A stretch of 47,912 nucleotides of DNA, from NCBI GenBank assembly GCA_003567725.1, contig PWYU01000008.1, positions 1 through 47,912 on the forward strand, in the 5' to 3' direction. Source of the DNA: Syntrophomonadaceae bacterium (GTDB lineage: Bacteria > Bacillota > Dethiobacteria > DTU022). This document shows positions 12,287 through 46,846 of this stretch, in pieces; position 1 is the stretch's first letter, and the number at the start of each line of letters is the position of its first letter. The notes beneath the pieces are model-generated. The model was not told the origin of the DNA and searched no databases. It saw only the letters and a list, made by a program, of their open reading frames with translations. The translations under genes and the position numbers were made by a program.

Positions 12287-12314
12287 AGAAGAAGAAATGG
12301 AGGTTGAAAATGAG

Positions 12315-14720: not shown

Positions 14721-15617
14721 TTGTTCAAGCTAGCAGGAATATATGCACCCATTGCAACGGCATTTAAGGATGGTGAGATAGCTTATGAGGAATTACGAAG
14801 TAATCTTGAAAAATGGGAAAAGACAAGCCTGGCAGGCCTGGTGGTTTTAGGTTCCAACGGAGAATTTGTATTGTTGGACGAAGATGAGAAAGTAAAGTTA
14901 ACAGCTTTTGTTAGGGAGAATTTTTCTTCTGAAAAACCAGTTATTGCCGGGACTGGATGTGAGTCCACCGGGGCTACTATCCGGTTAACAAAAAGTTGTG
15001 CTGAAGTTGGAGTAGATGCTGTTTTAGTTCTGACTCCTACATATTATAAGGGGAGTATGACCGATGAGGCTTTGAACGGGTTTTTCCAGGAAGTTGCTGA
15101 TGCTTCACCTGTGCCTGTGATTCTATATAATATGCCCAGAAATACCGGGGTCAATATGTCCGTCCCGCTTGTAACCGCACTTTCAAAACACCCGAACATT
15201 ATTGGTATAAAAGATTCATCCGGTAATATTGTTCAGATAGCCGGAATCTTGGCCGAGACAGATCCTGATTTTTCTGTTTTTGCCGGCTCAGGAAGCTTTC
15301 TTTATGCTTCGCTTTGCCTGGGGGCCACCGGTGGCACTTTGGCTGTAGCAAATATATTGCCCAACCAATGTCACCGGATTTTAGAATTATACAATGCCGG
15401 TGAGTATACGAAGGCTAAAGAAATACAATTTAGAATACTTGAAGCCAACGCAGCTGTGACCGCGAAGTGGGGCGTAGCAGGATTAAAGGCAGCTATGGAT
15501 ATGATGGGCTATTATGGTGGGGAGGTTAGAAAACCATTGCAGGAATTACTGGAAGACAATAAGAAAGAGCTAAAATTGATTTTAAAACAGTGGGATCCTA
15601 ACGATAAAAAAGATTAG
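14721..15617 (+). CDS. DHDPS/NAL-family aldolase, 4-hydroxy-2-oxoglutarate aldolase-like
   Basis: This 298-residue class I aldolase belongs to the dihydrodipicolinate synthase superfamily. The Schiff-base lysine is Lys164 in IGIKDSSGN, and the conserved tyrosine is Tyr136 in LYNMPRNTG. The binding loop reads LGSNGEF (44-49), like mammalian HOGA1, instead of the G-T-T-G-E of DapA. AGTGCEST (76-83), NAAVT and GYYGGEVRKPLQEL near the C terminus also recall HOGA1. This points to cleavage of 4-hydroxy-2-oxoglutarate to pyruvate and glyoxylate rather than lysine synthesis. The start is TTG at 14721, after GGAGG. The comparison is from memory of the family, not from an alignment. Confidence 0.8.
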   Translation: MFKLAGIYAPIATAFKDGEIAYEELRSNLEKWEKTSLAGLVVLGSNGEFVLLDEDEKVKLTAFVRENFSSEKPVIAGTGCESTGATIRLTKSCAEVGVDAVLVLTPTYYKGSMTDEALNGFFQEVADASPVPVILYNMPRNTGVNMSVPLVTALSKHPNIIGIKDSSGNIVQIAGILAETDPDFSVFAGSGSFLYASLCLGATGGTLAVANILPNQCHRILELYNAGEYTKAKEIQFRILEANAAVTAKWGVAGLKAAMDMMGYYGGEVRKPLQELLEDNKKELKLILKQWDPNDKKD

Positions 15618-15942: not shown

Positions 15943-17043
15943 TTGAGTAGAAAAAGAAGTTTATGGAGTTTTCTATTTGTTGGGTTACTTTTATTCGTGC
16001 TTATTTTTGCTGGCTGTGCAGATGAACCTGCAGAGGATCCCGTTGATGAGCCAGATGAAGAAGTGGACGAGGATGTGGATGAAGAAGAAGAAGCAGAACC
16101 GGACGAAGATCTATATGAGGGTGATTTGCTCGCCAACTCGGTTTGGCCGGAAGATAACCACCAAACCAGGGCTTTGTATGAGCTTTCTGAAAGGCTTCAA
16201 GCAGCTACCGATGGTAGGGTAGGCTTCAATATTCAGTCCGGTGGTGCTTTAGGCTACACTGACCCTGAGCTAATTACGGGCGTTAGAGACGGCATCGTTC
16301 CCGTATCAACTATTATGGCCAGCGGTGCTGCTGGAGAAGAGCCGCTTTTGGACGTAACTACCTTGCCGTTCTTGCTGCGGGATTATGATGAAGCCCGGCT
16401 ATTTTATGACACATATAAACCCTATTTCAACGAAATACTGGAAGATAAATGGAACCAGAAACTGCTTCTGGTATCACCGTGGCCTGGAGCCGGAATTTGG
16501 ACCCAGCATCCGGTTGAATCCGTAGATGATATGGTAGGTTTAGAAACTCGAACTTACGATAGAAATGGGGCGCTCGTAATGGAAGCAGCTGGCGGCACGC
16601 CTCATCCCCTGCCTTTCAGTGAGGTTTACTCATCACTGGCAACCGGAGTAATTGATTCTGTAATCACCTCAACACCAACAGCAGTTGATGCCAAGTTCTG
16701 GGAAGTACTGGACTATTATACTCCCATGTTTATGACACTTGGTATGGAGATGTTTGTAATTAACATGGATGAGTTTAACGCGATGGATTCAGGAACCCAG
16801 GAAACCTTGCTTTCAGTTGCAGCAGAGCTGGAAGATGATTTATGGAACAACATCGCAGAAATTGACCGTGAAAACGAACAAATCTGTGTTGATAACGGTA
16901 TCGAAGTAGTTGAACCGCCTGACCAATACTTTGAAGACATCGCGGCGGTAACTAGTGAAATTCGTGAAGAGTGGCTCCAGGAACAAGCTCCTCCCGAGGC
17001 ACAGCAAATAGTAGATGAATTTAATGAAAAAGTCGGTCGCTAA
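15943..17043 (+). CDS. dctP: TRAP transporter substrate-binding lipoprotein
   Basis: This 366-residue DctP-family protein is the external receptor of a TRAP importer. The signal ends at IFAGC (Cys25), so the protein is lipid-anchored. A run of Asp/Glu residues from about 27 to 57 forms an acidic tether. The binding domain has the expected ENHQTRALYEL-type start, QSGGALGYTDPELITGVRDG, and the long helix near the end. TRAP receptors bind organic acids, usually through an arginine; VGLETRTYDRNG contains the likely residue. The TTG start follows AAGGAGGG at good spacing. It precedes the dctQ and dctM genes, with a hairpin in between. Confidence 0.93.
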   Translation: MSRKRSLWSFLFVGLLLFVLIFAGCADEPAEDPVDEPDEEVDEDVDEEEEAEPDEDLYEGDLLANSVWPEDNHQTRALYELSERLQAATDGRVGFNIQSGGALGYTDPELITGVRDGIVPVSTIMASGAAGEEPLLDVTTLPFLLRDYDEARLFYDTYKPYFNEILEDKWNQKLLLVSPWPGAGIWTQHPVESVDDMVGLETRTYDRNGALVMEAAGGTPHPLPFSEVYSSLATGVIDSVITSTPTAVDAKFWEVLDYYTPMFMTLGMEMFVINMDEFNAMDSGTQETLLSVAAELEDDLWNNIAEIDRENEQICVDNGIEVVEPPDQYFEDIAAVTSEIREEWLQEQAPPEAQQIVDEFNEKVGR

Positions 17044-17059
17044 TTAGAGAATAATTTAA

Positions 17060-17099
17060 AAGCATAGGCCTGACTTAATTAATAGTTAGGCCTATGCTT
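17060..17099 (+). other. Intercistronic hairpin between dctP and dctQ
   Basis: AGCATAGGCCTGAC (17061-17074) and GTTAGGCCTATGCT (17085-17098) pair with one G-T wobble, and an additional A-T pair extends the stem to about 15 bp around a 10-base loop. No T-run follows, so it is not a standard terminator. Such hairpins often stabilise the upstream message or reduce read-through, so that more binding protein than permease is made. This role is inferred. Confidence 0.6.
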
Positions 17100-17120
17100 A
17101 GTAATGAAAAGGAGCAGGTA

Positions 17121-17651
17121 ATGATGGAAAAGTTTGTTAATTTTATAGACCGCCTTTCTAATTCTTTTGGTGTTATTGCTGCTATACTTGTTATGATTGG
17201 ACTGACCCTGATTCTTGTTGAAGTAGTAATTCGAGGGACTTTTGGAGGCACTCTTTACATTACCCTTGAATATGTCAGATACATTACCAGTGCCGTAACC
17301 TTTTTAGCGCTGGGATATACACTAAAAGAAAAAGGTCACATCAGGGTTAATTTCTTACATGAAAGACTAACCGATCGACAAAGAAATTTGCTTAATATGT
17401 ATGCTTTTTTGGTGGGCTTCATCGTAGCATCCTTACTGACCATCACCTCATTCGGTTTCTTTTACGGGCACCTACTAAGTGGAAGTACAGCTTATACTCT
17501 TTCCCAAACCCCTATGGCCATTCCGACGTTCTTTTTGCCGGTCGGTCTATTAATATTTACATTACAGTTTGTTGCGGAATTTTTCCGTTCCATAATACTT
17601 CTAAAGACCGGACAAACAAGCGAAGTTGAGTCAAGCGCTCTGGGGCGCTAA
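17121..17651 (+). CDS. dctQ: TRAP transporter small permease subunit
   Basis: This is a DctQ-type membrane protein of 176 residues with four hydrophobic segments. The conserved region around ITLEYVRYITSAVTFLALGYTLKEKGHIRVNF lies between spans 2 and 3 (family signature KGHIRV). I chose the ATG at 17121, with AAGGAGC just upstream. An earlier in-frame ATG at 17094 lies inside the right arm of the dctP-dctQ hairpin. It pairs with the large permease encoded next to make a sodium- or proton-driven importer. Confidence 0.9.
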   Translation: MMEKFVNFIDRLSNSFGVIAAILVMIGLTLILVEVVIRGTFGGTLYITLEYVRYITSAVTFLALGYTLKEKGHIRVNFLHERLTDRQRNLLNMYAFLVGFIVASLLTITSFGFFYGHLLSGSTAYTLSQTPMAIPTFFLPVGLLIFTLQFVAEFFRSIILLKTGQTSEVESSALGR

Positions 17652-17685
17652 GGCGAAACAGAGCTTACATCAGGAGGTTGAAATA

Positions 17686-18987
17686 TTGGATCCGATATAT
17701 GTAATTTCCCTTACTTTGATTGTAATCCTTGCTTTTTTTCTTGTAAGCACGGTCTGGATAGCGGTTACATTGTTTATTGTCGGCCTGCTCGGTATCACCA
17801 TTTTTACAGATTTTGATGCCATGAAAATAATGGCTAACATATTATGGGGCAGCACTGCTCAATCGAGCTTATTCGCACTGCCTCTGTTTGTTTTAATGGG
17901 AGAAGTAATTTTCCGCAGCAAAATGTCAGCAAACTTGTTTGCAGGTTTAAATCCCTTGTTACATAAACTGCCAGGCCGATTATTGCATGTTACTGTGGTG
18001 GCTTCTGCAATGTTTGCTGCAGTAAGCGGTTCTTCAGCAGCAACCTGCGCTACAGTAGGTAAAATTGTCTTGCCGGAAATGGATGCCAGAAACTATGACC
18101 GGAAAATGGTTTTTGCCATCCTGGGAGGCTCAGGTACCCTTGGCTTTCTAATTCCACCCAGTATGGTTATGATTGTTTACGGTATTACTGCTAATGTCAG
18201 CATCGGGCAGCTTTTTATTGCAGGGCTTATCCCGGGAGCTATGATAGCTGCCATCTTTATGCTTTATATAATCATTCGTGCCCTTATCAATCCTAATCTC
18301 GCTCCTGCCGACGATGCCACTTATACCGGGAAAGACTATCTCAGATCGATACCGCTGGTTCTGCCTGTTTTCCTGCTGATCGGAGCAGTCCTGGGCAGTA
18401 TTTATTTAGGATGGGCTACACCTACCGAAGCCGCTGCTGTTGGCGTTTTTGGCGCTTTCATATTCGCCTATTTCAACAAAGCTTTAAAATGGGATAATTT
18501 TAAGGAAGCATTAATGGGATCGATAAAAACAGCCTGCATGATTATGTTTATCGTGGCCAGTGCTTCTTTTATATCAGTGGTTGTAGGTTACCTGGGTATT
18601 CCCAGGATGTTAACTCAAACTATAGCCGAAATGGGTTTATCTCCTTACATGCTGCTTGTAATTTTATCGATAATGTATCTTATCCTGGGCTGCTTGCTGG
18701 ATGGTTTTTCCATGGTCGTTATGAGTATTCCTATCGCCCTACCCCTGATCACTTTTGCCGGCTTTGATCCACTTTGGTTCGGTATATATCTTGTTATAAT
18801 GATACAAATATCTCAGATTACGCCTCCTATCGGTTTTAACCTTTTTGTAATTAACGGAATTACCGACGAAAATATATTTAAAATTGCCCAGGCTGTGATT
18901 CCGGTTTTTATTTTAATGTTGGTGGCGGTTGCTATAATAGCTATCTATCCTGAAATTGTGTTGTTCTTACCAGGGTTGATGTGGTAA
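17686..18987 (+). CDS. dctM: TRAP transporter large permease subunit
   Basis: This 433-residue DctM protein is very hydrophobic, with about 11-12 spans. Family regions are visible: FALPLFVLMGEVIFRS, AAVSGSSAATCATVGKI, GGSGTLGFLIPPSMVMIVYG and QITPPIGFNLFVI. The preferred start is TTG at 17686, because AGGAGGT lies 7 bases before it. The open frame to 17626 would overlap dctQ and add a non-family N terminus. It completes a three-gene TRAP importer, which probably supplies the substrate of the surrounding enzymes. Confidence 0.93.
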   Translation: MDPIYVISLTLIVILAFFLVSTVWIAVTLFIVGLLGITIFTDFDAMKIMANILWGSTAQSSLFALPLFVLMGEVIFRSKMSANLFAGLNPLLHKLPGRLLHVTVVASAMFAAVSGSSAATCATVGKIVLPEMDARNYDRKMVFAILGGSGTLGFLIPPSMVMIVYGITANVSIGQLFIAGLIPGAMIAAIFMLYIIIRALINPNLAPADDATYTGKDYLRSIPLVLPVFLLIGAVLGSIYLGWATPTEAAAVGVFGAFIFAYFNKALKWDNFKEALMGSIKTACMIMFIVASASFISVVVGYLGIPRMLTQTIAEMGLSPYMLLVILSIMYLILGCLLDGFSMVVMSIPIALPLITFAGFDPLWFGIYLVIMIQISQITPPIGFNLFVINGITDENIFKIAQAVIPVFILMLVAVAIIAIYPEIVLFLPGLMW

Positions 18988-19085: not shown

Positions 19086-21176
19086 ATGAATAATAATGGG
19101 ACCTATCGTTTAGGAGTTGACATCGGAGGCACATTTACAGATTTTGTTTTAATTAAGGAGGAGACCGGGGAAAACAGGATCGGTAAGAATTTAACCACGC
19201 CCGAAGATCCATCAGAAGGAGTAATTACCGGTCTTACGAACCTTATTGAAGAAGAGAAAATTGATCCCCACCAGATTTCAACGATAGTCCACGGGACCAC
19301 CCTGGTAACCAATGCTTTAATTGAGAGAAAAGGTTCGAAAACGGGCCTGCTTACCACGGAGGGATTTAGGGATACATTAGAAATTGCCAACCAGTACCGT
19401 TTTGATCCTTATGATGTGTACCTGGAAAAACCGGAGCCCTTGGTACCCAGGAACCTGCGTTTTACCTTGGATGAAAGAGTATTGGCGGATGGAACTGTTT
19501 CCAAGCCTTTGGATCGTGGTGAATTGGAAGAACGGGTTAGGAAGTTCCAAAAGATGGGTGTCGAAGCAATTGCTATTTGTTTTATGAACAGTTTCATAAA
19601 TGGTGTCCATGAAAAAGAAGCTCTAAAAATCATTAATGAAACTGCTCCTGAAATGTATGTTTCTATCTCTTCAGAGGTAATACCAGAAATACGTGAATAT
19701 GAAAGAACTTCAACAACAGTAGCTAACGTTTTTGTTAAAGCCACAGTAGAAAGATATTTACAAAAAGTAACCCAAAGATTACAAGAACTCGGATTTGAAG
19801 GCAATTTTTTCATGATGCTATCTAATGGTGGAATTTGTACTGTAGAAACTGCCTGTGAATTTCCTGTTCGGATATTGGAATCCGGCCCTGCTGCCGGTGC
19901 CCTGGCAGCTGCAATGTACGGTGAAAAAGGTTCTTTTCCCAACGTTCTTTCATTTGATATGGGAGGAACTACCGCTAAATCTTGTATTATCGAAAATAAT
20001 ACGCCATTAAAGGTTAACGAATTTGAAGTGGCACGAGTTTATCGCTTTAAAAAGGGAAGCGGTCTGCCAATTAAAGCTTCTGTAATAGAAATGATTGAAA
20101 TTGGAGCCGGGGGCGGCAGCATGGCCTATATTGATAAATTCGGACTATTGAAGGTAGGCCCTCATAGCGCCGGCTCCAATCCCGGTCCGGTAAGCTATGG
20201 GCTTGGTGGAACTGAACCTACGGTTACCGATGCTGATTTAATGTTAGGATATCTTGATCCAAATTTCTTCCTGGGTGGAAAGATGAAATTGGATAAAGAT
20301 GCGGCATATAAGGCTATGAAAGAAAAAATAGCTGACCCGCTTGGAATTGATCCTGTAGAGGCAGCATGGGGAATACACAAAGTAGTAAATGAGAACATGT
20401 CAAATGCCGCTCGAATTCATGCCATTGAATATGGCAAGGATCTGGCCCAGTTCCCCCTCTTTGCTTTCGGAGGGGCAGGTCCCGTCCATGCCTACAATGT
20501 TGCCAGAAATCTAGGAGTTGATGCAGTTGCTCTTCCTTTAGGTGCCGGGACCACCTCCGCACTTGGTCTTTTATGTGCTCCGCTTGCCTTTGATTATGTG
20601 CGCAGCTATTATGGGCGTTTAGATTCTATAGATTGGCAAGAAGTAAATCGCTTTTTTGATGAAATGATCAAAGAGGGTAAGGAACTTTTAGTTAAAGCAG
20701 GACTAAAAGAGGAGGATATTAAAGTTAGCAGATCTTGTGACATGAGATATGTCGGTCAGGGTCATGAGGCAAACGTGTTCCTGCCTGAAGGAGAACTGCA
20801 TGAAGGAAGAATTGAGGAACTGGAAGCTGTTTTTGAAAAAACTTATCAAGAGCTATACCACCAATCAGGCCCGGATATGCCGCTTGAAGCTTTGACCTGG
20901 CGTGTATCATTAAGCGGTCCCAAGCCTCAAATCCCATTAGAAAGTTTTAAAAAAGATGATTATGAAAAAGCCTTAAAGGGTGAAAGGGAAGTTTACTTTG
21001 ATGAACAGGGGGGTTTTATAAAAACCCCCGTATATGATCGTTATCTTTTGGGCTTTGGATTTCAAACTCAGGGGCCTGCTGTTTTTGAAGAACACGAGTC
21101 TACAGTTGTGGTAGGGATAGAAGCAAAAGACATAAAAATAGATGAACAAAATAATTTGATCGTGAGGTGGAGCTAA
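19086..21176 (+). CDS. hyuA: Hydantoinase A / oxoprolinase subunit (ATP-dependent lactamase)
   Basis: This 696-residue HyuA-family protein is the ATP-binding subunit of enzymes such as N-methylhydantoinase, bacterial 5-oxoprolinase-like proteins and acetone carboxylase. The ASKHA ATPase motifs are clear: LGVDIGGTFTDFV at residues 8-21, the HGTTLVTNALIERKG loop, FDMGGTTAK near 296, and IEIGAGGGSMAYID. The family opens a cyclic amide by phosphorylating its carbonyl oxygen. AAGGAGGT lies about 15 bases before the ATG. hyuB follows after 1 base. The separate pxpBAC-type genes downstream encode an unrelated solution to a similar reaction, so the two probably act on different lactams or steps. Confidence 0.9.
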   Translation: MNNNGTYRLGVDIGGTFTDFVLIKEETGENRIGKNLTTPEDPSEGVITGLTNLIEEEKIDPHQISTIVHGTTLVTNALIERKGSKTGLLTTEGFRDTLEIANQYRFDPYDVYLEKPEPLVPRNLRFTLDERVLADGTVSKPLDRGELEERVRKFQKMGVEAIAICFMNSFINGVHEKEALKIINETAPEMYVSISSEVIPEIREYERTSTTVANVFVKATVERYLQKVTQRLQELGFEGNFFMMLSNGGICTVETACEFPVRILESGPAAGALAAAMYGEKGSFPNVLSFDMGGTTAKSCIIENNTPLKVNEFEVARVYRFKKGSGLPIKASVIEMIEIGAGGGSMAYIDKFGLLKVGPHSAGSNPGPVSYGLGGTEPTVTDADLMLGYLDPNFFLGGKMKLDKDAAYKAMKEKIADPLGIDPVEAAWGIHKVVNENMSNAARIHAIEYGKDLAQFPLFAFGGAGPVHAYNVARNLGVDAVALPLGAGTTSALGLLCAPLAFDYVRSYYGRLDSIDWQEVNRFFDEMIKEGKELLVKAGLKEEDIKVSRSCDMRYVGQGHEANVFLPEGELHEGRIEELEAVFEKTYQELYHQSGPDMPLEALTWRVSLSGPKPQIPLESFKKDDYEKALKGEREVYFDEQGGFIKTPVYDRYLLGFGFQTQGPAVFEEHESTVVVGIEAKDIKIDEQNNLIVRWS

Positions 21177-21177
21177 T

Positions 21178-22875
21178 ATGAGCGATGTTAAACTAGATGC
21201 GATTCAACTGGAAATCCTCTGGAACAGGCTTCTTGCTATTGTCGAAGAGCAGGCCCGGGCGTTGATGCATACTGCTTTTACAACAATTGTCAGAGAATCT
21301 GGTGACTTGTCAGCTGGTATATTTGATCCCTCCGGGAATATGATTGCTCAGGCTGTGACAGGAACTCCCGGTCATATAAATTCAATGGCTATCTGTATAA
21401 ATTATTTTATGGATGCTTTTCCAGAAAGTGAACTGGAGCCGGGTGATGTTTTGATTACCAATGACCCCTGGTATACTTCCGGGCACCTTCATGATTTTAC
21501 AGTTGTCACCCCAATCTTTAAAGAGGGCAAGCTGGTTGCTTATTCCGCAAATACGACGCATGTTCTTGATATTGGGGGAATAGGTTTCAGTACTGATGCG
21601 CGGGATGTTTACCAGGAAGGGCTTTATGTCCCCATAATGAAAATCTATAAGGCCGGCAAGCGAAATGATGAGCTTTTTGAGATCATAGAAAAAAACGTAA
21701 GAGCTCCCAGACCTGTTTTAGGTGACCTGTATGCCCAGTTTGTTTGTAATAATGTGGGTGGAGCCCGCTTGCTGGAAATGATGGGCGAGTTCGGATTAGA
21801 TTCTATTCAGCCTTTAGGCAATGAAATTATTAAACGCACTGAAAAAGCGATGAGGGAAAGTATCCGTACTATACCTGACGGTGTATACACCCAAAATATC
21901 TTAACAGATGGTTTTGATACACCTATTGTTATAAATGCAACAGTAACTGTATCCGGTGACGAAATAACAGTTGATTATGATGGTTCTTCCCCTCAAAGCG
22001 ACCGGGGGATCAATGTTGTTTTAAATTATACAAAGGCATACACAACTTTTGGTTTAAAATGCCTGGTAAGCCCTGATGTGCCTAATAATGAAGGCAGTTT
22101 TCGCCCTATAAAAACTACGGCTCCCGAAGGTTCTATATTGAACCCAAAACGACCGGCTCCGGTCGGGGCGCGCCATAATATAGGGCATTTTCTTTCCGGT
22201 GTTGTGATTGGCGCAATTTCCAAGGCTCTACCTGAAAAAGGTATGGCCGATGGTTATGACAGCCTTTGGATTACCCAGCTAAGTGGAGTATCGGATAAAG
22301 AAGAACCTTTTTCGGCAGTTATTTTTTCTGTAGGGGGAACAGGGGCGTTGCCTGGTAAAGATGGCCTTTCTGCCACACCATTTCCCAGTAATGTTCGTGG
22401 TGTCTCTGCAGAAGTGCTTGAAAGTGTTTATCCATTGTTTATTAAACAGAAGGAATTGTGGCCGGATTCCGCCGGGGCTGGTTGTTACCGGGGTGGATTC
22501 GGGCATATCATGGAAATATATGTTAACAGTGATAAGCCTTACTTGTTGGCACCCATGTACGATAGAACTGAACATCCAGCGCAGGGCATTGTTGGAGGTA
22601 AAGAAGGAAGTCCGGGAATAGCCATGCTTCATACCGGGGAAAAATTACATCCCAAAAGAAGGCTTGATGTTGAACCTGAAAAGGGTATTATTATAAAACT
22701 TCCAGGCGGGGGAGGTTACGGTAATCCTTATGAACGTGACCCTTACAAAGTCTTAGAAGATGTAATCAGTGAAATGGTATCAATTGAGAAAGCAGCCGAA
22801 GACTACGGTGTGGCAATTAATCCTCAAACCCTTGAAATAGACTGGGGAAAAACCAAAAAGATAAGAAACGGCTAG
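21178..22875 (+). CDS. hyuB: Hydantoinase B / oxoprolinase subunit
   Basis: This 565-residue HyuB-family protein is the partner of HyuA and carries the hydrolytic site in this enzyme group. Family features include TNDPWYTSGHLHDFTVV near residue 97, GTPGHINSM, the ARHNIGHFLSG region and PGGGGYGNPYER near the end. Its length is normal. The start ATG is right after the hyuA stop, which suggests equimolar synthesis. Known members open hydantoins, N-methylhydantoin or 5-oxoproline with ATP. Which ring is used here cannot be told from the sequence. Confidence 0.9.
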   Translation: MSDVKLDAIQLEILWNRLLAIVEEQARALMHTAFTTIVRESGDLSAGIFDPSGNMIAQAVTGTPGHINSMAICINYFMDAFPESELEPGDVLITNDPWYTSGHLHDFTVVTPIFKEGKLVAYSANTTHVLDIGGIGFSTDARDVYQEGLYVPIMKIYKAGKRNDELFEIIEKNVRAPRPVLGDLYAQFVCNNVGGARLLEMMGEFGLDSIQPLGNEIIKRTEKAMRESIRTIPDGVYTQNILTDGFDTPIVINATVTVSGDEITVDYDGSSPQSDRGINVVLNYTKAYTTFGLKCLVSPDVPNNEGSFRPIKTTAPEGSILNPKRPAPVGARHNIGHFLSGVVIGAISKALPEKGMADGYDSLWITQLSGVSDKEEPFSAVIFSVGGTGALPGKDGLSATPFPSNVRGVSAEVLESVYPLFIKQKELWPDSAGAGCYRGGFGHIMEIYVNSDKPYLLAPMYDRTEHPAQGIVGGKEGSPGIAMLHTGEKLHPKRRLDVEPEKGIIIKLPGGGGYGNPYERDPYKVLEDVISEMVSIEKAAEDYGVAINPQTLEIDWGKTKKIRNG

Positions 22876-22955
22876 TCATTAAATCCTAAATACTGATCAG
22901 TGATTGACTGGTTTCCAAAAAATGAAGGCGCAATTGGAATAGAGGTGGTATTGTA

Positions 22956-23717
22956 ATGAACTTAGAAGTAAATCTTACCGGGAAAACGGCTCTTGTTGTT
23001 GGAGGCAGTCGTGGGATTGGTAGAGCAATTAGCCTTAAATTAGCTGAGGCAGGCGCAGATGTAGCTGTAGCAGCTCGAACAAGCCAGGGGATAGATCATA
23101 TCAAAAAAGAAATCGAAGCACTAAGCGCCTCATTTTTGGGAATTCCTTGTGATATCAGGGAAACAAGCCAGATATCTAAGATGGTAGATGATGTTAATGC
23201 CTGGAAGGGTAGAATTGATCTCATGGTTAATTCTGCAGGCGTTAATATACCGACTCCAGTGCTTGAAGTTAACGAAGATATATGGGATAAAACTATCGAT
23301 ATCAACCTTAAGGGGGCTTTCTTCTGCTGCCAGGCTGTAGCTAACAAAATGGTTTCTCAAAAAACCGGAAAGATTATTAATATAACTTCGCAACTTGCTT
23401 TTGTGGCTTATGAGGGTAGATCGGTTTACTGTGCCAGTAAAAGTGGGCTGGCTCATATGTCCAAGGTTTTTGCCCTTGAATTAGCCCCTTATAACATACA
23501 GGTTAACTGTATAGCACCAACTTTTACCAGGACTCCCATGACTGAAGCTGTTTTTAATGATCCGGAAGCTTATCAAAAGGTAATTAGCCGTATACCATTG
23601 GGCAGGGCCGGGGAACCAGAAGATTATACCGGGGCAGTGTTATATCTTGCATCCGATTCTGCCAACCTGGTTACGGGAACAACTCTGCTAATTGATGGTG
23701 GTTGGACAATCGAATAG
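22956..23717 (+). CDS. SDR-family NAD(P)-dependent oxidoreductase
   Basis: This is a classical short-chain dehydrogenase of 253 residues. It has the GGSRGIGRA nucleotide motif at 16-24, NSAG at 92-95, and the catalytic Ser145-Tyr158-Lys162 triad (ITSQ, then VYCASK). The end, GTTLLIDGGWTIE, is typical of the FabG-like group. The gene sits between the two lactam hydrolase systems. It may oxidise or reduce a hydroxyl/keto group of the island's substrate. The cofactor preference is uncertain; FabG-like fatty acid synthesis is unlikely in this setting. Confidence 0.88.
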   Translation: MNLEVNLTGKTALVVGGSRGIGRAISLKLAEAGADVAVAARTSQGIDHIKKEIEALSASFLGIPCDIRETSQISKMVDDVNAWKGRIDLMVNSAGVNIPTPVLEVNEDIWDKTIDINLKGAFFCCQAVANKMVSQKTGKIINITSQLAFVAYEGRSVYCASKSGLAHMSKVFALELAPYNIQVNCIAPTFTRTPMTEAVFNDPEAYQKVISRIPLGRAGEPEDYTGAVLYLASDSANLVTGTTLLIDGGWTIE

Positions 23718-23782
23718 TGCTGAGTTTTGCTTCAATAATTCTGGTTTGTTACTCGGACAAGAAAATTTTGGGGGAAAGAAGA

Positions 23783-24487
23783 ATGGAAGAGGAAGTTAGG
23801 TACATTCACGCGAGTGATTGTGCTTTGATTGTTTCTTTTGGTGAGGATATTTATGAGACAGTAAATAAAAAAGTATTTGCATTATGGAAAGCGATCGAAA
23901 GAGAGCAAGTTAAAGGGGTAGTTGAAGTTGTTCCAACCTACCGGGATTTATGTATTTCCTACAATCCACTGGAACAAACTACTGATCATCTAATTGAAAT
24001 ATGTAATCATTTAATAAAGAATTTAAGTTATAAAGAAGAAAGTGAAAGAAGGGTCATTGAAGTGCCTGTTGTTTATGGGGGGGAATATGGGCCTGATTTG
24101 GAATATATTGCAGAACTACATAATTTAACTCCTGAAAAAGTAATAGAGTTGCACAGCGCTCCAGAATACAGGATTTACATGGTAGGATTTGCCCCGGGTT
24201 TTCCATACCTGGGTGGATTGGACGAAAGATTGCATACGCCGCGGCGTGAGGTGCCAAATCCCCGTGTTCCAACAGGTTCTGTGGGAATTGGCGGAAAGCA
24301 AACCAATGTTCTAACCATTACTGGTCCCAGCGGGTGGTGGTATATAGGAAAAACTCCCCTCGTCTTTGCCGATGTTAATAAGGATGATCCCACGTTAATA
24401 AAACCAGGAGATTATATAAAATTTGCTCCAATAAAACCAGAGGAATTTGAACTCTACGGTGATGAAAATAAAGGGAGTAATCATTAA
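23783..24487 (+). CDS. pxpB: 5-oxoprolinase subunit PxpB (KipI family)
   Basis: This 234-residue protein belongs to the KipI/allophanate-hydrolase subunit 1 family. It has MVGFAPGFPYLGG, TPRREVPNPRVPTGSVGIGG and the closing GPSGWWYIGKTPL. I chose ATG 23783, preceded by GGGGGAAAG; the open frame from 23702 overlaps the SDR gene and adds unrelated sequence. In known bacteria PxpA, PxpB and PxpC together hydrolyse 5-oxoproline to glutamate with ATP. Its stop overlaps the pxpC start. Confidence 0.9.
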   Translation: MEEEVRYIHASDCALIVSFGEDIYETVNKKVFALWKAIEREQVKGVVEVVPTYRDLCISYNPLEQTTDHLIEICNHLIKNLSYKEESERRVIEVPVVYGGEYGPDLEYIAELHNLTPEKVIELHSAPEYRIYMVGFAPGFPYLGGLDERLHTPRREVPNPRVPTGSVGIGGKQTNVLTITGPSGWWYIGKTPLVFADVNKDDPTLIKPGDYIKFAPIKPEEFELYGDENKGSNH

Positions 24488-25527
24488 TGAGTGTCCATTT
24501 TTTAGAAGTTTTACAACCGGGTATATTAACCACGGTTCAAGATACAGGTCGTTTTAAATATCAAAGACTTGGTTATACCCAATCAGGCGCAATGGATGAT
24601 TATGCACTGCGAGTAGGCAATCGGTTGGTTGACAATCCAGAAAATGAAGCCGGCCTTGAAATGACCTATGTCGGTGAGGAGTTTTTAATATTAACCGATG
24701 CAATGATAGCCATAACAGGGGCTGATTTTTCTCCTGAAGTTGATGGCACCGCTATACCGATGTGGCAATCTGTTAATGTTGAAAAAAACAGTTTTTTAAG
24801 TTTTAAGGAAAGGAAGTACGGGGTTCGAGCATATATATGCGTAAAAGGCGGTTTTGATGTACCGCGCGTTTTGGGCAGCAAATCTACTGATCTTAAATCT
24901 TCATTCGGTGGCTATGAAGGAAGGAAATTAAAAGCTGGTGATATTCTTTCCATTCCGAAAATGTCAGTGGATTCCGGAAATATCAATAATAAGTTTCCCG
25001 AGGAGCTGGTTGAACAAAATTACCGTTGGTATGATGAACCGCAAGAAATAAAAGTGACGCTGGGTCCGGATACGGATAACTTTACCGAAAAAGGTTATAA
25101 AACTTTACTGGAAAGTGAATATGAGATCAGTGAAAAACTGGATCGGCAGGGTTATCAATTGATTGGTTCCAAAATTGAACACAGTTCAAAAAGTCCCAAC
25201 ATAATAACAAATTTTACTTCACTTGGAGCTGTCCAGGTCCCGGGTGCAGGAACCCCTATAATTTTAATGAAAGACAGGCAAACTTCAGGTGGTTACGCAA
25301 AGATAGCTAATGTGATCAGCGCCGATATAAGTAAGCTTGCCCAGAGAGGGTTGGGGGAAAAAATATCTTTTACTTCGGTCGATATAAGCCGGGCGAGGGA
25401 ATTGTTTATTAATTACGAAAGCATTGTTAGTAAAACAAAGCTGGAACCCCTGGTGGACCATTTAATTTTTAGGGTCCAGGTAGATAACGAGAACTACATT
25501 GTTCATATTAAGGAGGTAGATAGCTGA
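24487..25527 (+). CDS. pxpC: 5-oxoprolinase subunit PxpC (KipA / carboxyltransferase-like family)
   Basis: This 346-residue protein matches the KipA/allophanate hydrolase subunit 2 family. It begins LEVLQPGILTTVQDTGR, then has GYTQSGAMDDYALRVGNRL near 35 and TDLKSSFGGYEGR near 130; the end contains VQVPGAGTPIILMKDRQT and GYAKIANVI. It works with PxpB and PxpA in ATP-dependent ring opening of 5-oxoproline. Start and stop overlap the neighbouring genes by 1 base each, a sign of tight translational coupling. Confidence 0.9.
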   Translation: MSVHFLEVLQPGILTTVQDTGRFKYQRLGYTQSGAMDDYALRVGNRLVDNPENEAGLEMTYVGEEFLILTDAMIAITGADFSPEVDGTAIPMWQSVNVEKNSFLSFKERKYGVRAYICVKGGFDVPRVLGSKSTDLKSSFGGYEGRKLKAGDILSIPKMSVDSGNINNKFPEELVEQNYRWYDEPQEIKVTLGPDTDNFTEKGYKTLLESEYEISEKLDRQGYQLIGSKIEHSSKSPNIITNFTSLGAVQVPGAGTPIILMKDRQTSGGYAKIANVISADISKLAQRGLGEKISFTSVDISRARELFINYESIVSKTKLEPLVDHLIFRVQVDNENYIVHIKEVDS

Positions 25528-26318
25528 TGACTTTGAAGATTGATATGAACTGTGATATGGGAGAAAGTTTCGGCCATTACGTGCTTGGCTTTGATGAAGA
25601 AATCTTGAAGAATGTTTCTTCTGCTAACATTGCATGTGGCTTTCATGCCGGTGATTATATGGTAATGGCGAAAACTGTGGAAATGGCTATCGAGAATGGG
25701 GTAGCTACCGGAGCTCATCCAGGATACCCTGATCTTCAGGGATTTGGAAGAAGGGCGATGGACATGACTTTTGCTGAATTTAAAAATATGATTCTTTATC
25801 AAATAGGTGCTTTAGATGCAATTGTAAAAGCCAGAGGTGGCAAGCTTGTTCATGTGAAGTGTCACGGGGCCCTGGGTAATGATGCTAACAACAGGGCCAT
25901 TAAGGGTGATTATGAAGTAGTTGAGGCCCTGGGCCAGGCAGTGTTGGAGTATAATGATAAACTGGCTGTTGTAGCTTTTGCAAAATCTGCCATGGTTGAT
26001 AAATTAAGAGAAATGGGCTTATATGTATTGGAGGAAGTTTTTGCGGATAGGGCCTATAACGTTGACTGCAGCCTTGTATCAAGGAAACTGCCCGGTTCCT
26101 TGATCACTGATCCCAGTGAAGTTATCGAACGAGTTTTAAAGATGGTAAAGGATGGAGTTATTATTACTAGTGACGGACAGGAAATTAAAGGCGTTAATGC
26201 GGATACGATTTGTTTTCACGGTGATACGCCTACGGCAGTAGAATTAACCAGGCAGGCAAGGGAAGCCTTTGAAAGGGAAGGAATTGAAGTTGGGAATCCC
26301 CTGCACCAAGATGCTTAA
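25527..26318 (+). CDS. pxpA: 5-oxoprolinase subunit PxpA (LamB/YcsF family)
   Basis: This 263-residue protein has the LamB/YcsF signature KIDMNCDMGESFG at the N terminus, then SANIACGFHAGDY near 32 and GAHPGYPDLQGFGRR near 60. HVKCHGALGN and VFADRAYN in the middle and CFHGDTPTAV near the end are also family features. PxpA is the hydrolase subunit of the bacterial 5-oxoprolinase. It is the last of the three overlapping pxp genes. An AAGGAGG site before the ATG supports the start. Confidence 0.92.
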   Translation: MTLKIDMNCDMGESFGHYVLGFDEEILKNVSSANIACGFHAGDYMVMAKTVEMAIENGVATGAHPGYPDLQGFGRRAMDMTFAEFKNMILYQIGALDAIVKARGGKLVHVKCHGALGNDANNRAIKGDYEVVEALGQAVLEYNDKLAVVAFAKSAMVDKLREMGLYVLEEVFADRAYNVDCSLVSRKLPGSLITDPSEVIERVLKMVKDGVIITSDGQEIKGVNADTICFHGDTPTAVELTRQAREAFEREGIEVGNPLHQDA

Positions 26319-26501: not shown

Positions 26502-28058
26502 ATGTCATACAGTAAAGATTTAGGAAGCGCATTAACAAATACAAAATTGAGGACACCTAAAGACGTTTCAACTTTTTCCGGTATGTGTTCTGTATGTACT
26601 GCTACTTGTGCAGGTTCATGTGAAATTGGATTATCAGCGATTAGAGGTTCAGAAGCTATATTCCCCACTTCAACAAATAAAAATCAAATTGCATCTGAAA
26701 AAAACTATCCCCTGGATTTTTCCCACTTTAATATTAATGGCAGGGTTTTTGGTACTCAGGGTTGTAACGAAAACGTAAAAGAAGCCAGCTATCCAAATGT
26801 AAATATAGAAACAGGTTTAGGTAAAAGTAATGAGATTAGGTTAAAAGCACCAATTATACTTCCAGCTATATCTAAGCTTAACTGGAAAGACTATTATGCT
26901 GGAGCAGCTTTGGCGGGTGTTGTAGCAGTAATTGGTGAAGATGTTGTGGCCAAAGATAGTGAACTCATTTTAGAAGGCGGAAAAGTTAAGTCTTCCCCAT
27001 TGCTAAAAGAGATGGTGTCAGCTTATAGAATTTATCAGCAGCAGGATTTTGGTGATATTGTACTCCAGGCAAACATAGATGACGATTATCTGGGTGTTTT
27101 AGAGTATGCCATAAAGGAACTGGATATCAAGTCGGTTGAAATTAAGCTGGGGCAGGCTGCAAAAGGTATACAAGGTTTGCGCAGGATCGAGGATATCAAT
27201 GAGGCCCTCAAATTCCAACAAATGGGATATATTATTTACCCGGATCCTTCTGATATTAAAATAGCTGAAAATTACAGAAAAGGGAACGGTCCGGTATTTG
27301 AAAAGATAGGCAAGCTTCCATTGTGGAATGAGGATACGCTGAGGGATAGAATAGAAGACTTGAGAAAATGTGGAGCTGAACGAATTTGTTTAAAAGCAGG
27401 ACCATATGATCCTAAAGATTTAATAAAAATTATAAAAATTGCATCTTTGGCCAAAGTTGATCTAATTACTTTTGATGGATCCGGTGGAGGAAGTGGCAAC
27501 AGCCCTGTTAAGATGATGAATGAGTGGGGTATTCCAACTGTTTATCTGGAAAAAATTGTTTATGATATAATGTCGAAACTTGATGAAAAGGGTTATGATT
27601 TGCCCCATGTAGCTATAGCCGGTGGTTTTGCCATGGAAGATCAGGTTTTTAAGGGATTATCCCTCGGAGCTCCATATATCAATCTGGTGGGGATCGGCCG
27701 AGCTGCGATGGCAGCTGCAATGGTGGGCAAGCATATGGGTGATTTAATCAGGCAAAAAAAGGTTCCTAAAGAATTTAAACAGTTTGGCAGTTCATTAGAG
27801 GAGATATTTGAAGATGCCAAAATAATTAAAGAAATTTATGGACAAAAAATCTCCAACATACCTCCCGGTGCAATTGGTTTATACTCATATATTCAAAGAA
27901 TCTCGGTGGGGCTCCAGCAATTGATGGCCCTTAATCGAAAATTCTCTCTCAAATATATAGATAGAGAAGATATTATTCCCTTAACTGATTTAGCGTCCCA
28001 AATAACTGGATTGGAAACAGCTACAGCAAGATTACAAAAAGAGTTAAGGAACATATAA
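26502..28058 (+). CDS. FMN-binding glutamate-synthase-like protein with N-terminal Cys cluster
   Basis: This 518-residue protein matches the FMN/synthase domain of glutamate synthase (GltB2-like) but has no glutaminase domain. The N terminus carries CSVCTATCAGSC (Cys29, 32, 36, 40), which could hold an iron-sulfur cluster. The TIM-barrel core has VEIKLGQAAKG near 210, DLITFDGSGGGSGNSP near 320 and IAGGFAMEDQ. Relatives include archaeal-type stand-alone glutamate synthase proteins and MgsC of N-methylglutamate synthase. Without an amidotransferase partner nearby, ammonia, an amine or an imine may be the nitrogen donor. A GltD-like partner domain is present in the fusion protein at 31190. GTGAGGAG precedes the ATG. 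Confidence 0.8.
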   Translation: MSYSKDLGSALTNTKLRTPKDVSTFSGMCSVCTATCAGSCEIGLSAIRGSEAIFPTSTNKNQIASEKNYPLDFSHFNINGRVFGTQGCNENVKEASYPNVNIETGLGKSNEIRLKAPIILPAISKLNWKDYYAGAALAGVVAVIGEDVVAKDSELILEGGKVKSSPLLKEMVSAYRIYQQQDFGDIVLQANIDDDYLGVLEYAIKELDIKSVEIKLGQAAKGIQGLRRIEDINEALKFQQMGYIIYPDPSDIKIAENYRKGNGPVFEKIGKLPLWNEDTLRDRIEDLRKCGAERICLKAGPYDPKDLIKIIKIASLAKVDLITFDGSGGGSGNSPVKMMNEWGIPTVYLEKIVYDIMSKLDEKGYDLPHVAIAGGFAMEDQVFKGLSLGAPYINLVGIGRAAMAAAMVGKHMGDLIRQKKVPKEFKQFGSSLEEIFEDAKIIKEIYGQKISNIPPGAIGLYSYIQRISVGLQQLMALNRKFSLKYIDREDIIPLTDLASQITGLETATARLQKELRNI

Positions 28059-28190: not shown

Positions 28191-28507
28191 ATTTATTAGA
28201 GGTGTAGGACCCATTTCGCTTTAATACAAGTAAATAAACTCAATTTCTAGTTAATAATAACTTTCCAACCCCAATTGCCAAATATGATCGGTTTACAGGG
28301 TAAATAATAAATATTTATCTGGTTCACAATGGTAGAAATATCGACATATCCTATTATTGATATGCAAATTATTCATTTTACTATATATTCATGTTGATAT
28401 AAGATTTAATTAGATAATATTTGAAGTGACTGCATAAGCTAAATTATGTAGTTTTTTAAGGGCTTAAATGAATGATTTAAGAAACAACATAAATGGAGGG
28501 AATAATA

Positions 28508-29662
28508 TTGGGAAAAGGGCGAGTTGCAGTTCTCTCGGGAAATGATGCTATAGCTGAAGGAGCTTTAGCGGCCGGTATGCGTTTTTTCGCCGGATATCCT
28601 ATAACTCCTGCAAGCGAAATTTCTCATTTTTGTGCTGACGAATTGCCAAAATATGGCGGTAAGTTTATTCAGATGGAAGACGAAATTGCCAGTATGGCCG
28701 CCATAATTGGAGCATCTATGGCAGGCGGAAAATCAATGACTTCTACCAGCGGCCCAGGATTTTCCTTGATGCAGGAAAATCTGGGTTTTGCCATAATGGC
28801 CGAAGTGCCCTGTGTGGTTGTGGATGTAATGCGATTTGGACCCAGCCAGGGAGTTGCTACTGTGCCTGCGCAAGCTGATGTTATGCAGGCGCGATGGGGG
28901 ACCCATGGTGATCATCCCAGTATAACCCTGGCTCCATCAACTGTAGAGGAAGCTTATCATGTGACTGTGCGCGCTTTTAATCTGGCGGAGAAATACCGGA
29001 CCCCGGTAATTATTTTATCTGATGCCACCCTATCTCAAATGAGTGAAAAAATAAAAATTCCTGATCCTGATAGTTTGGAAATCTTAAATAGGAAAAAAGC
29101 AACAGTTGACCCTCAACAATTTAAACCATATCAAGATGATGGTACAGGAGTATGCCCCTTTGCCTCTTATGGTGATGGGTACATATGGTATACAACGGGC
29201 ATTGTGCACGATGAAACAGGGTTTCCGGCTACCGGTGATCCTGACAAATTAACGATACAAATTAATAGGTTGCATGACAAGATCAACAAAAACCTGGATG
29301 ATATTATACAGGTTGATGAATACATGACAGAAGATGCGGAAATTATTATCTTGGCTTATGGTTCTGTAGCCAGATCAGCTTTTGCCGCAGCCGATAAAGC
29401 CCGCAACGAAGGCATCAAGGTAGGAGTAGTAAAACCAATAACAATATGGCCCTTTCCTGAAGAGGTAATTAAGAAAGTCAGTGAAAAAGTTGAATCAATA
29501 CTCGTTTGTGAAATGAACCATGGTCAATTATTTGAGAAGGTAAAAGAAACTGTTGAAGGCAAAGCAAAGATGGCTTTTCTTGGTCAGTATAATGGTAAAT
29601 CAATTAAGCCAGACAAAATATTGGCAGCAGTCAAGGAGGTTTCAAGTGGTGTCTTCCAATAG
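28508..29662 (+). CDS. korA: 2-oxoacid:ferredoxin oxidoreductase alpha subunit
   Basis: This 384-residue protein fits the alpha subunit of the KorA group. It has AVLSGNDAIAEGALAAG, FFAGYPITPASEI, QMEDEIASMAAIIGASMAG and TSTSGPGFSLMQE near the N terminus, and the domain II motif VGVVKPITIWPFPEE near residue 320. I chose TTG 28508, with GGAGGG 7 bases before it; an in-frame ATG at 28493 overlaps that ribosome site. The complex converts a 2-oxoacid plus CoA to acyl-CoA, CO2 and reduced ferredoxin. 2-Oxoglutarate is the closest guess, but a different 2-oxoacid of the island is possible. No separate ferredoxin (delta) subunit is present. Confidence 0.88.
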   Translation: MGKGRVAVLSGNDAIAEGALAAGMRFFAGYPITPASEISHFCADELPKYGGKFIQMEDEIASMAAIIGASMAGGKSMTSTSGPGFSLMQENLGFAIMAEVPCVVVDVMRFGPSQGVATVPAQADVMQARWGTHGDHPSITLAPSTVEEAYHVTVRAFNLAEKYRTPVIILSDATLSQMSEKIKIPDPDSLEILNRKKATVDPQQFKPYQDDGTGVCPFASYGDGYIWYTTGIVHDETGFPATGDPDKLTIQINRLHDKINKNLDDIIQVDEYMTEDAEIIILAYGSVARSAFAAADKARNEGIKVGVVKPITIWPFPEEVIKKVSEKVESILVCEMNHGQLFEKVKETVEGKAKMAFLGQYNGKSIKPDKILAAVKEVSSGVFQ

Positions 29663-30476
29663 TATCGTTGAAAAATATCTTCGAACAGATAAACTTCCAC
29701 ATATCTGGTGTCCAGGCTGTGGTAATGGGATAGTAATTAATTCTTTGATCCGGGCCATTGATAATGCAGGCCTGGAACAAGAAAAAACAGTGATAATTTC
29801 TGGGATTGGCTGTTCGGGTAGGGCTTCGGGTTATTTAAAGTTTTGTGCTTTTCAACCTGTTCATGGTAGAGTTTTAGCTTACGCAACAGGTATCAAGTTA
29901 TTTAAGCCTGAATTACATGTTATTTGTATTATGGGAGATGGCGATTGTGCCTCAATAGGGGGAAATCACCTGATTCATGCCGCCAGAAGAAATATTGGTG
30001 TAACAGCAGCTGTGCTTAATAATAGTAACTATGGGATGACAGGTGGCCAGTATTCCCCCACAACTCCTGAGGGAGCAAAAACCAGGACCTCTCCATATGG
30101 AAATATAGAACCGCCTTTTGATATATGTGATCTTGCGAAAGCCTCAGGAGCGACCTACGTTGCCAGATCTCATACCTACAAACCGCGGATCTTAACCAAA
30201 TACTTTCAAAAAGCTTTAACTCACGACGGATTTGCACTGGTAGAGGCCATGTGTGATTGCCCTACCCTGTATGGCAGGTTGAATAAGAAAGGCGCAGGAA
30301 AGGAAATGCTTATGAATCAAAAAGACAGGGCTGTCCCGCTGGAAAAAGCAAAAAATAAGAGCAGTGAGGAACTGGAAGATAAGTTTGTGGTTGGTGAGTT
30401 TGTAAACAAAACAAGACCCGAATATACAAAACAGTATACAAAAATGATCGAAAAAGTAAAACTGGAGGCCGATTAG
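29649..30476 (+). CDS. korB: 2-oxoacid:ferredoxin oxidoreductase beta subunit
   Basis: This thiamine-diphosphate subunit is about 275 residues. It begins LRTDKLPHIWCPGCGNGIV, with the CPGCG cluster/cofactor motif, and has the TPP motif GDGDCASIGGNHLIHAARR and NNSNYGMTGGQYSPTTP. I chose GTG 29649 (another GTG is at 29646), since AGGAGGT lies 8 bases before it; the open frame starting at 29553 overlaps korA and is not family-like. The gene overlaps the end of korA by 14 bases and is followed at once by the gamma gene. Confidence 0.9.
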   Translation: MSSNSIVEKYLRTDKLPHIWCPGCGNGIVINSLIRAIDNAGLEQEKTVIISGIGCSGRASGYLKFCAFQPVHGRVLAYATGIKLFKPELHVICIMGDGDCASIGGNHLIHAARRNIGVTAAVLNNSNYGMTGGQYSPTTPEGAKTRTSPYGNIEPPFDICDLAKASGATYVARSHTYKPRILTKYFQKALTHDGFALVEAMCDCPTLYGRLNKKGAGKEMLMNQKDRAVPLEKAKNKSSEELEDKFVVGEFVNKTRPEYTKQYTKMIEKVKLEAD

Positions 30477-30477
30477 A

Positions 30478-31047
30478 ATGTCTGAATATTTTGAAGTAAG
30501 ACTGAGTGGATCTGGCGGGCAGGGCATGATGCTTGCGGGAATTTTTTTAGCTGAAGCAGCTGGAATATATGATGACAAAAATATTGTTCTTTGTAAATCT
30601 TATGGACCTGAAGCCAGGGGAGGGGCCTGTCGTTCAGAGGTTATTATTAGTGAGGAACCGATCGTGTATCCGGAAGTGCAAGAACCTGATTTGGTTCTCG
30701 CTATGACCCAAGAAGCTTGTAATAAATATTATAAAGATTTGAAGCCAGGGGGAATTATGATCGTTGATCCTGAATATGTTCGGGAAATTCCTGATGCCAA
30801 TATTGAGATCTTCCAGGTTCCTCTTACCCGGATAGCAAGGGAAGAAATTGGATATGAAATCACGGCGAATGTTGTTGCCCTTGGAGCTTTTGCGGCCATC
30901 GTTGACTGGGTAGCCATAAACTCTATTAGAAAAGCTATTCTTGATAGGACTCCCCAAAGTACTGATGCTTTAAATAAGAAAGCTTTTGATTGTGGGTACA
31001 CTTATGTAATCAATAATTATAAGGAAAAAGCAAGGAAAATTGGATAA
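30478..31047 (+). CDS. korC: 2-oxoacid:ferredoxin oxidoreductase gamma subunit
   Basis: This 189-residue gamma subunit has the opening RLSGSGGQGMMLAGIFLAEAA and the conserved KSYGPEARGGACRSEVIIS stretch. It completes a KorABC-type enzyme encoded without a fused or adjacent ferredoxin subunit. The ATG is one base after the korB stop, with GGAGG upstream. The 31048-31189 spacer after it holds only a weak inverted repeat (GCGGC...GCCG) and no gene. Confidence 0.9.
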   Translation: MSEYFEVRLSGSGGQGMMLAGIFLAEAAGIYDDKNIVLCKSYGPEARGGACRSEVIISEEPIVYPEVQEPDLVLAMTQEACNKYYKDLKPGGIMIVDPEYVREIPDANIEIFQVPLTRIAREEIGYEITANVVALGAFAAIVDWVAINSIRKAILDRTPQSTDALNKKAFDCGYTYVINNYKEKARKIG

Positions 31048-34673: not shown

Positions 34674-34713
34674 AAGTTTTTTAAGAAAAATATTTTTGAG
34701 AGGATGATCATTG

Positions 34714-35919: not shown

Positions 35920-35942
35920 AGATATGAAGGTAGGTGTGCATT

Positions 35943-46294: not shown

Positions 46295-46846
46295 CTACAG
46301 GTTGGCATATAGTACAGAGCAATCAAATGTTGCCTGCTTCTGATCAATGCGCCTGTTAAATAAAGGTCTGGAAGGGAGCCTGTCATACTGGTGGGCCACT
46401 TCAGAACGGGGGCTTCGAAAGACCAGGCGCGCTTCATTTCCGCCTTTAGCAATCAGGCTATCCAGGATTTCTTGTTTCGGTTCTGCCTGAAGGGCGACCA
46501 GGGCAACGTCAAAGTCATAGGGAAAAGGATCCCGTCCATCATAATTTAATACGGAGATTAAATTATCCATGTTTTGAGCGGCTATACATTTACGGGCTAC
46601 ATTAACCGCATTTTGGTCGTTGTCAACCGCCCACACCCGGGCCCCGGTAAATTTGGCTATTAAAAGCGCTGTAAAAGGAATCCCCCCGCAGCCGATGTTA
46701 AGGACCCGGTCACTGGCGGTTATAGCGGCCAACTTGATTTCGTTATGCACTACTTCATGATATATCCTGGAGTAAAGTGAAACCAGCACCCTGCTGGAAG
46801 CAATCTTTTTTTCCATCATTGCCACTACCGGTGCAACTATCTTCAT
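46295..46846 (-). CDS. Nicotianamine-synthase-like SAM-binding protein, second copy
   Basis: This protein is 183 residues from ATG 46846, preceded by AGGTG at 6 bases. A Rossmann SAM-binding core begins DRVLNIGCGGIPFTALLIAKF, followed by VWAVDNDQNAVNVA. Later EARLVFRSPRSE recalls the 'VVRSAHG' block of nicotianamine synthases, which join aminobutyrate units from SAM. It overlaps the 3' end of the preceding similar gene by 92 bases in another frame. Standing directly upstream of feoAB, a metallophore or iron-related role is possible. An ordinary methyltransferase is the alternative. Confidence 0.65.
   Translation of the reverse strand: MKIVAPVVAMMEKKIASSRVLVSLYSRIYHEVVHNEIKLAAITASDRVLNIGCGGIPFTALLIAKFTGARVWAVDNDQNAVNVARKCIAAQNMDNLISVLNYDGRDPFPYDFDVALVALQAEPKQEILDSLIAKGGNEARLVFRSPRSEVAHQYDRLPSRPLFNRRIDQKQATFDCSVLYANL

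Follow-up and report, generated by a model that had tools for sequence, protein, structure and literature searches.

In mammals, aspartate transaminase, 4-hydroxy-2-oxoglutarate aldolase (HOGA) and alanine-glyoxylate aminotransferase (AGT) act in series on 4-hydroxyglutamate. The HOGA step of this route has been described, with Ser198 and Asn78 as unique residues of the enzyme engaged in substrate binding (PMC3188589). The closest described lactam hydrolases are N-methylhydantoinase and the caprolactamase CapAB of the HyuAB family, for which the HyuA and HyuB motifs have been defined (PMC8453981), and the prokaryotic 5-oxoprolinase PxpABC, while structures of the Bordetella tripartite ATP-independent periplasmic (TRAP) receptors DctP6 and DctP7 carry a 5-oxoproline ligand (PMC13274462). 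Relatives of these systems lie together on contig PWYU01000008.1 of a Syntrophomonadaceae bacterium (GCA_003567725.1), analysed over positions 1 to 47,912 (hereafter the window, 47,912 nucleotides). The genome (G000; 2.39 Mb in 127 contigs) resembles a metagenome-assembled genome (MAG), and its host is styled a soda-lake-type bacterium. Six intact genes, hyuA, hyuB, a short-chain dehydrogenase/reductase (SDR) gene, pxpB, pxpC and pxpA, are consecutive on the + strand at 19086-26318. We propose that the locus takes up 5-oxoproline-type lactams, at least one of them hydroxylated, and opens their rings at the expense of ATP, and that transamination, HOGA cleavage and glyoxylate transamination follow, a reading to which we give slightly less than an even chance.

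The initial annotation had placed two unrelated ATP-dependent lactamase families side by side with a single SDR gene between them, and this arrangement is borne out by exact coordinates, by intact motifs and by Pfam matches far over cut-off for all core lactamase genes (Table 1), ATP dependence being assigned by family. In HyuA, the ATP-site motifs DxGGTxxD, DxGGT and GxxPGP are all present (DIGGTFTDF at 12, DMGGT at 291 and GSNPGP at 363), and HyuB contains the D/E-H-D-H metal site as D43, H103, D106 and H128, equivalent to the CapB metal ligands. Neither subunit deviates at any column at least 95% conserved among its relatives (76 rows for HyuA and 82 for HyuB). By family membership, HyuAB is predicted to open a cyclic amide using ATP, and among solved structures both subunits have a fused N-methylhydantoinase as their best homologue, at 417 bits for HyuA and 238 for HyuB. 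The SDR reaches no equivalog cut-off in the NCBIfam profile comparison. The first listed start of pxpB at 23702 overlaps the SDR gene, and the likely ATG at 23783 lies 65 nt past it. Because the intergenic gaps from dctP of the TRAP transporter through pxpA are at most 98 nt, a single predicted operon over these genes is plausible; a terminator scan gave a count equal to the shuffled background, and a promoter scan gave promoter-like sites scattered on both strands.

The window PxpBCA differs from an ordinary PxpABC present in the same genome. This second set is encoded on contig C31 of G000, and the sister MAG (G001, Syntrophomonadaceae bacterium CSSed162cmA_245) also has an ordinary pxpABC, which adjoins korABC; since it exists separately in both genomes, the window pxpBCA would be free to specialise. 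In a concatenated tree of 58 loci, the window set, its sister and a set on contig C80 of genome G113 form a separate clade with support of 1.0, as do the C31-type sets (support 1.0), which rules out the window copy as a recent duplicate of the ordinary one. At near-invariant positions (86-99% agreement, 67-70 homologues aligned), window PxpB carries R186N, G202N, Y204L, P205T and G210S (numbering of the open reading frame (ORF) from 23702) and window PxpC carries M221Q and R224Q, and the C31 proteins hold the consensus at all seven positions. The deviations of window PxpA are few, including G181C and T at 234 (consensus N). Because near-invariant residues are lost that the ordinary copy keeps, an altered substrate of window PxpBCA is likely, judging from these alignments. 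The G113 set, the closest outside relative, has some of the PxpB changes and none of the PxpC ones, and stands beside homologues of an RraA-type aldolase and a threonine/3-hydroxyaspartate ammonia-lyase. Against the NF045499 cut-off of 500, window PxpC scores 222 bits and the canonical C31 PxpC 228 bits. Around the C31 set (L015), two tandem genes of the proline-racemase/hydroxyproline-epimerase family lie about 6 kb from pxpABC (387-2437), and a homoserine-dehydrogenase-like gene is found upstream of pxpA (11125-12192).

The arrangement is kept in the sister MAG, where the order TRAP-hyuAB-SDR-pxpBCA-korABC recurs, and the locus is therefore not an assembly accident. Protein identity between the two is 87% for HyuB, 85% for PxpA and 75% for both PxpB and PxpC. 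The sister locus (L003) and G001 contig C46 are the same contig and thus count as one independent witness. The TRAP through flavoprotein genes are kept on C46, starting near a contig end, and the genes for the IclR-racemase fusion, the aspartate-type aminotransferase, AGT and HOGA follow the window order near the end of contig C6, so that in G001 the transaminase/HOGA and lactamase genes sit on separate contigs.

To estimate how rare the adjacency is, 299 Bacillota and 249 Pseudomonadota genomes were surveyed, with phylum labels taken from the search centres. HyuB was found in 47 of the 299 Bacillota and at least 110 of the 249 Pseudomonadota genomes, and CT_C_D in 90 and 104, respectively; G000 aside, both families occur in 17 Bacillota and at least 40 Pseudomonadota genomes. 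Pairs within 20 kb were present in one Bacillota genome (G217) and at least three Pseudomonadota genomes (G481, G454 and G348), with about 0.3 and 0.7 expected under uniform placement; co-localisation was counted by eye from match lists, and the Pseudomonadota count is a lower bound. Frequent chance adjacency, which the initial annotation had named as evidence against its reading, was not found (at least 4 of 57 other genomes), and adjacency of hyuAB and pxpABC as a common unit is ruled out by these surveys. The PxpBC type is diverged in all four of those genomes, and among the surveyed genomes a canonical-looking pxpBCA adjoins hyuAB only in this lineage. Close relatives of HyuB in a genome-wide search amounted to one sister MAG and one distant match. 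In G217 (L010, contig C43), urea-carboxylase-like pxpBC genes adjoin hyuAB and no pxpA was found; a gene for an EmrE-family transporter (Pfam PF13536) adjoins hyuB there. The G481 locus (L011) has pxpA, a biotin carboxylase gene and pxpBC close to hyuAB, together with a gene for the flavin subunit of a molybdenum hydroxylase; molybdenum-hydroxylase-type genes are also near the pair in G454 (L012). Diverged pxpABC accompany hyuAB in these two loci and in that of G348 (L013), all possible N-heterocycle clusters. A PxpA-like ORF adjoins hyuAB in G502.

The genes around the lactamases supply the remaining parts of the proposed route. The top two solved matches of window DctP are 2pfy (129 bits) and 2pfz (111 bits), which we take to be Bordetella DctP7 and DctP6, and its carboxylate arginine is kept (the Arg of ETRTYD aligned with FRAYS); it is a predicted pyroglutamate-type receptor. 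All tested HOGA residues are kept in the HOGA1-like protein, in which S45, N46, Y136, K164, S166 and G189 correspond to S77, N78, Y168, K196, S198 and G222 of hHOGA. In the favoured pathway, the TRAP transporter would take up pyroglutamate-type cyclic amides, and the two ATP-dependent lactamases would open 5-oxoproline-type rings, at least one being a hydroxylated 5-oxoproline, most likely 4-hydroxy-5-oxoproline. In HyuA the lactam would be phosphorylated, or carboxyphosphate used, with hydrolysis at the metal site of HyuB, and PxpBC would phosphorylate a related ring that PxpA would open. The aspartate-type aminotransferase, which we infer to transaminate (hydroxy)glutamate, would convert 4-hydroxyglutamate to 4-hydroxy-2-oxoglutarate, from which the aldolase would yield pyruvate and glyoxylate, and the class V aminotransferase would turn glyoxylate into glycine. 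korABC would oxidise 2-oxoacids, and the CoA-transferase and CitE-like lyase possibly handle glyoxylate or succinyl-CoA. The SDR would interconvert a ring hydroxyl and ketone, a redox step between the two lactamases being suggested by the position of its gene alone. In this scheme the substrate, the division of labour between the lactamases, the role of the SDR and expression as a single transcript are all putative. A broader proposition, which we advance tentatively, is that neither of these unrelated ATP-dependent lactamases is a plain 5-oxoprolinase, that both act on hydroxylated pyroglutamates and feed a mammal-like route from 4-hydroxyglutamate to glyoxylate and pyruvate, and that the window PxpBCA clade is a PxpABC subfamily with a substrate of its own, so far undescribed.

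Several points weigh against this pathway. The substrate is not readable from sequence, and the PxpB and PxpC changes are known from alignment rather than from placement in a ligand-bound structure. Elsewhere in the family, HOGA-like genes with 52-58% identity are found unaccompanied by lactamases, and the window gene is the sole match to the DHDPS superfamily found in G000; a lysine-biosynthesis role for it is conceivable, and the assembly may lack the usual lysine-pathway DHDPS gene. The gap from the HOGA-like gene to dctP is 325 nt, and the two may belong to separate transcripts. Furthermore, most HyuAB relatives at 44-49% identity have other neighbours (TRAP genes, an FAD oxidase with an NAD oxidoreductase, or metC with a racemase), so that the HyuAB substrate is not tied to aldolases, and reading it from neighbouring genes was dropped because these are too varied. 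On the supporting side, the two closest outside HyuAB sets (about 50% identity) are on Rhizobium and Bradyrhizobium plasmids with RraA-type genes nearby, and in Rhizobium an aspartate transaminase gene as well; as a pathway hint, the RraA-type neighbours are only suggestive.

Table 1. Annotated genes of the window and the matches behind each assignment
Feature	Coordinates	Strand	Evidence
IclR-type regulator fused to glutamate/aspartate-racemase domain	10631..12286	+	IclR_C 158, HTH_IclR 49, Asp_Glu_race 62 bits; TIGR00067 glut_race 169.5 (cut-off 146.7)
Aspartate-type pyridoxal phosphate (PLP) aminotransferase	12297..13484	+	NCBIfam best PRK08361 aspartate aminotransferase, 395 bits, under its cut-off
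Class V aminotransferase, alanine-glyoxylate type	13512..14687	+	Best solved match 1vjo alanine-glyoxylate aminotransferase, 375 bits
HOGA1-like 4-hydroxy-2-oxoglutarate aldolase, DHDPS superfamily	14721..15617	+	Best solved match human HOGA1 3s5n/3s5o, 262 bits; next DHDPS, 156
TRAP transporter dctP-dctQ-dctM, pyroglutamate-type binding protein (predicted)	15943..18987	+	DctP solved matches
HyuA, ASKHA ATP-binding subunit, hydantoinase/oxoprolinase family	19086..21176	+	Pfam Hydantoinase_A 286 bits, Hydant_A_N 186 bits
HyuB, metal-site hydrolase subunit	21178..22875	+	Pfam Hydantoinase_B 524 bits
SDR dehydrogenase, generic family match	22956..23717	+	adh_short_C2 221 bits; motifs GGSRGIG (glycine-rich), S/YxxxK (catalytic)
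PxpB (KipI-like)	ORF 23702-24487, likely start codon 23783	+	CT_C_D 229 bits; TIGR00370 222 (cut-off 145.6)
PxpC (KipA-like)	24487..25527	+	CT_A_B 295 bits; TIGR00724 288 (cut-off 230)
PxpA (LamB/YcsF)	25527..26318	+	LamB_YcsF 302 bits; NF003814 329 (cut-off 226)
Glutamate-synthase-like FMN-domain protein	26502..28058	+	Glu_synthase 43 bits
korABC-like 2-oxoacid:ferredoxin oxidoreductase	28493..31047	+	PRK08659 540 bits (cut-off 411); top match of the beta subunit is 2-oxoglutarate ferredoxin oxidoreductase
CaiB-type CoA-transferase and CitE-like C-C lyase	34711..36818	+	Kept in sister contig L008

The sister locus L003 has no glutamate-synthase-like gene at the place of 26502-28058. At 31190-33796, a protein that joins an old-yellow-enzyme domain to a GltD-like NAD(P) flavoprotein domain is followed by a DUF1847 protein, and the genes from the CoA-transferase to the flavoprotein are kept in sister contig L008. 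Two overlapping ORFs on the - strand at 46295-47507 resemble S-adenosylmethionine-dependent methyltransferases. In G001, a homoserine-dehydrogenase-like gene directly follows HOGA at the contig end (L167, 10750-11811).

One alternative is that both systems are plain 5-oxoprolinase isoenzymes, in which case the TRAP transporter would import 5-oxoproline, a lactamase would give glutamate, and a transaminase and korABC would finish the route. The match of DctP to 5-oxoproline receptors, the canonical pxpABC beside korABC in G001, the scores of window PxpA and PxpB over the 5-oxoprolinase cut-offs and the fact that in methanotrophs of halophilic and alkaliphilic habit 5-oxoproline can serve as an osmoprotectant (PMC13274462) are consistent with this. 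We nevertheless consider it unlikely, given that the C31 set would make a third oxoprolinase superfluous, that the window PxpB and PxpC lack near-invariant residues which that set holds, and that the HOGA-like and glyoxylate-type enzymes would be left unexplained. Still less likely is a stereochemical split, in which the D/L or cis/trans forms of a single lactam would be divided between the two lactamases and the IclR-fused racemase domain would bring the products to one isomer. That domain, which has both cysteine motifs (IACNTAS and LLACTDFP), comes first in the locus, and racemase genes stand beside HyuAB in Salipiger and Paracoccus too; however, a racemase domain fused to a regulator may be a sensor, and the sequence gives no sign of stereopreference.

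The initial annotation had suggested either two ring substrates or two steps on one multi-ring compound. The former is favoured: since a second, ordinary PxpABC exists and the window set, with its altered near-invariant residues, forms a clade of its own, HyuAB and window PxpABC probably do not share one substrate. The multi-ring compound is disfavoured because the TRAP protein, the two transaminases, the HOGA-like aldolase and the 2-oxoacid:ferredoxin oxidoreductase suggest a C5 acidic amino-acid route. Sequential action of one lactamase, the SDR and the other lactamase on one molecule containing two amide rings would suit the order hyuAB-SDR-pxpBCA, the same in the sister MAG, and the few other genomes in which a diverged or biotin-linked pxpABC is found close to hyuAB, two of them with molybdenum-hydroxylase-type genes; but the sequence of reactions does not follow from that of the genes, the downstream enzymes fit a single-ring C5 product, and we regard this as very improbable. 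HyuAB could instead be of the hydantoinase/N-methylhydantoinase type acting on a non-pyroglutamate ring, the two substrates sharing only transporter and regulator. Its best solved homologue points that way, whereas a carbamoylase gene, which would convert an N-carbamoyl product to the amino acid, was not found among the window ORFs examined, and the TRAP protein and aldolase suit pyroglutamate-type acids better, which makes this option improbable, though less so than sequential action. Chance neighbours without a common pathway would accord with the rarity of the adjacency elsewhere, which indicates that it is not a standard unit, but the single strand, tight spacing and order kept in the sister species leave this explanation scarcely credible.

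If the hydroxylated-lactam pathway is correct, a diverged PxpABC clade and one member of HyuAB, a large family that is mostly uncharacterised, would each gain a function open to testing, and the fate of hydroxylated pyroglutamate would be tied to the HOGA/AGT route, familiar above all from hydroxyproline catabolism in animals. The pathway would also urge caution against calling every PxpABC a 5-oxoprolinase. A dual-lactamase hydroxylated-pyroglutamate pathway in bacteria was not found in the literature searched, and what is new in the locus is how known kinds of enzyme are combined, with no new kind among them.

Our comparison with known systems reveals both shared and distinct elements. Like CapAB, window HyuAB has two subunits, the ASKHA motifs and the D-H-D-H metal site, but its scores of 573.7 and 248.8 bits fall under the NCBIfam equivalog cut-offs of 1000, the aligned stretch of HyuB has no Cys pair in place of the vicinal Cys410-Cys411 disulphide of CapB, and Phe occupies the position of CapB Tyr136; the low scores and the missing Cys pair rule out a caprolactamase identity. 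As in the prokaryotic 5-oxoprolinase PxpABC, three contiguous subunits are encoded, with PxpA and PxpB over the curated cut-off, while the order B-C-A, the separate clade and the changed PxpB and PxpC residues set the window proteins apart. The loci of G481, G454, G348 and G217 also bring both families within 20 kb, although their CT_C_D type is diverged and, in G217, closer to urea carboxylase. Three successive window genes encode the same three enzyme types as mammalian hydroxyproline catabolism (aspartate aminotransferase, HOGA1 and AGXT); the mammalian route is fed by hydroxyproline oxidation, whereas the window route would be fed by lactam hydrolases. The Bordetella TRAP receptors DctP6 and DctP7, the closest solved relatives of window DctP, are encoded near a eukaryotic-type 5-oxoprolinase gene (PMC13274462), while the window transporter is paired with both lactamase types.

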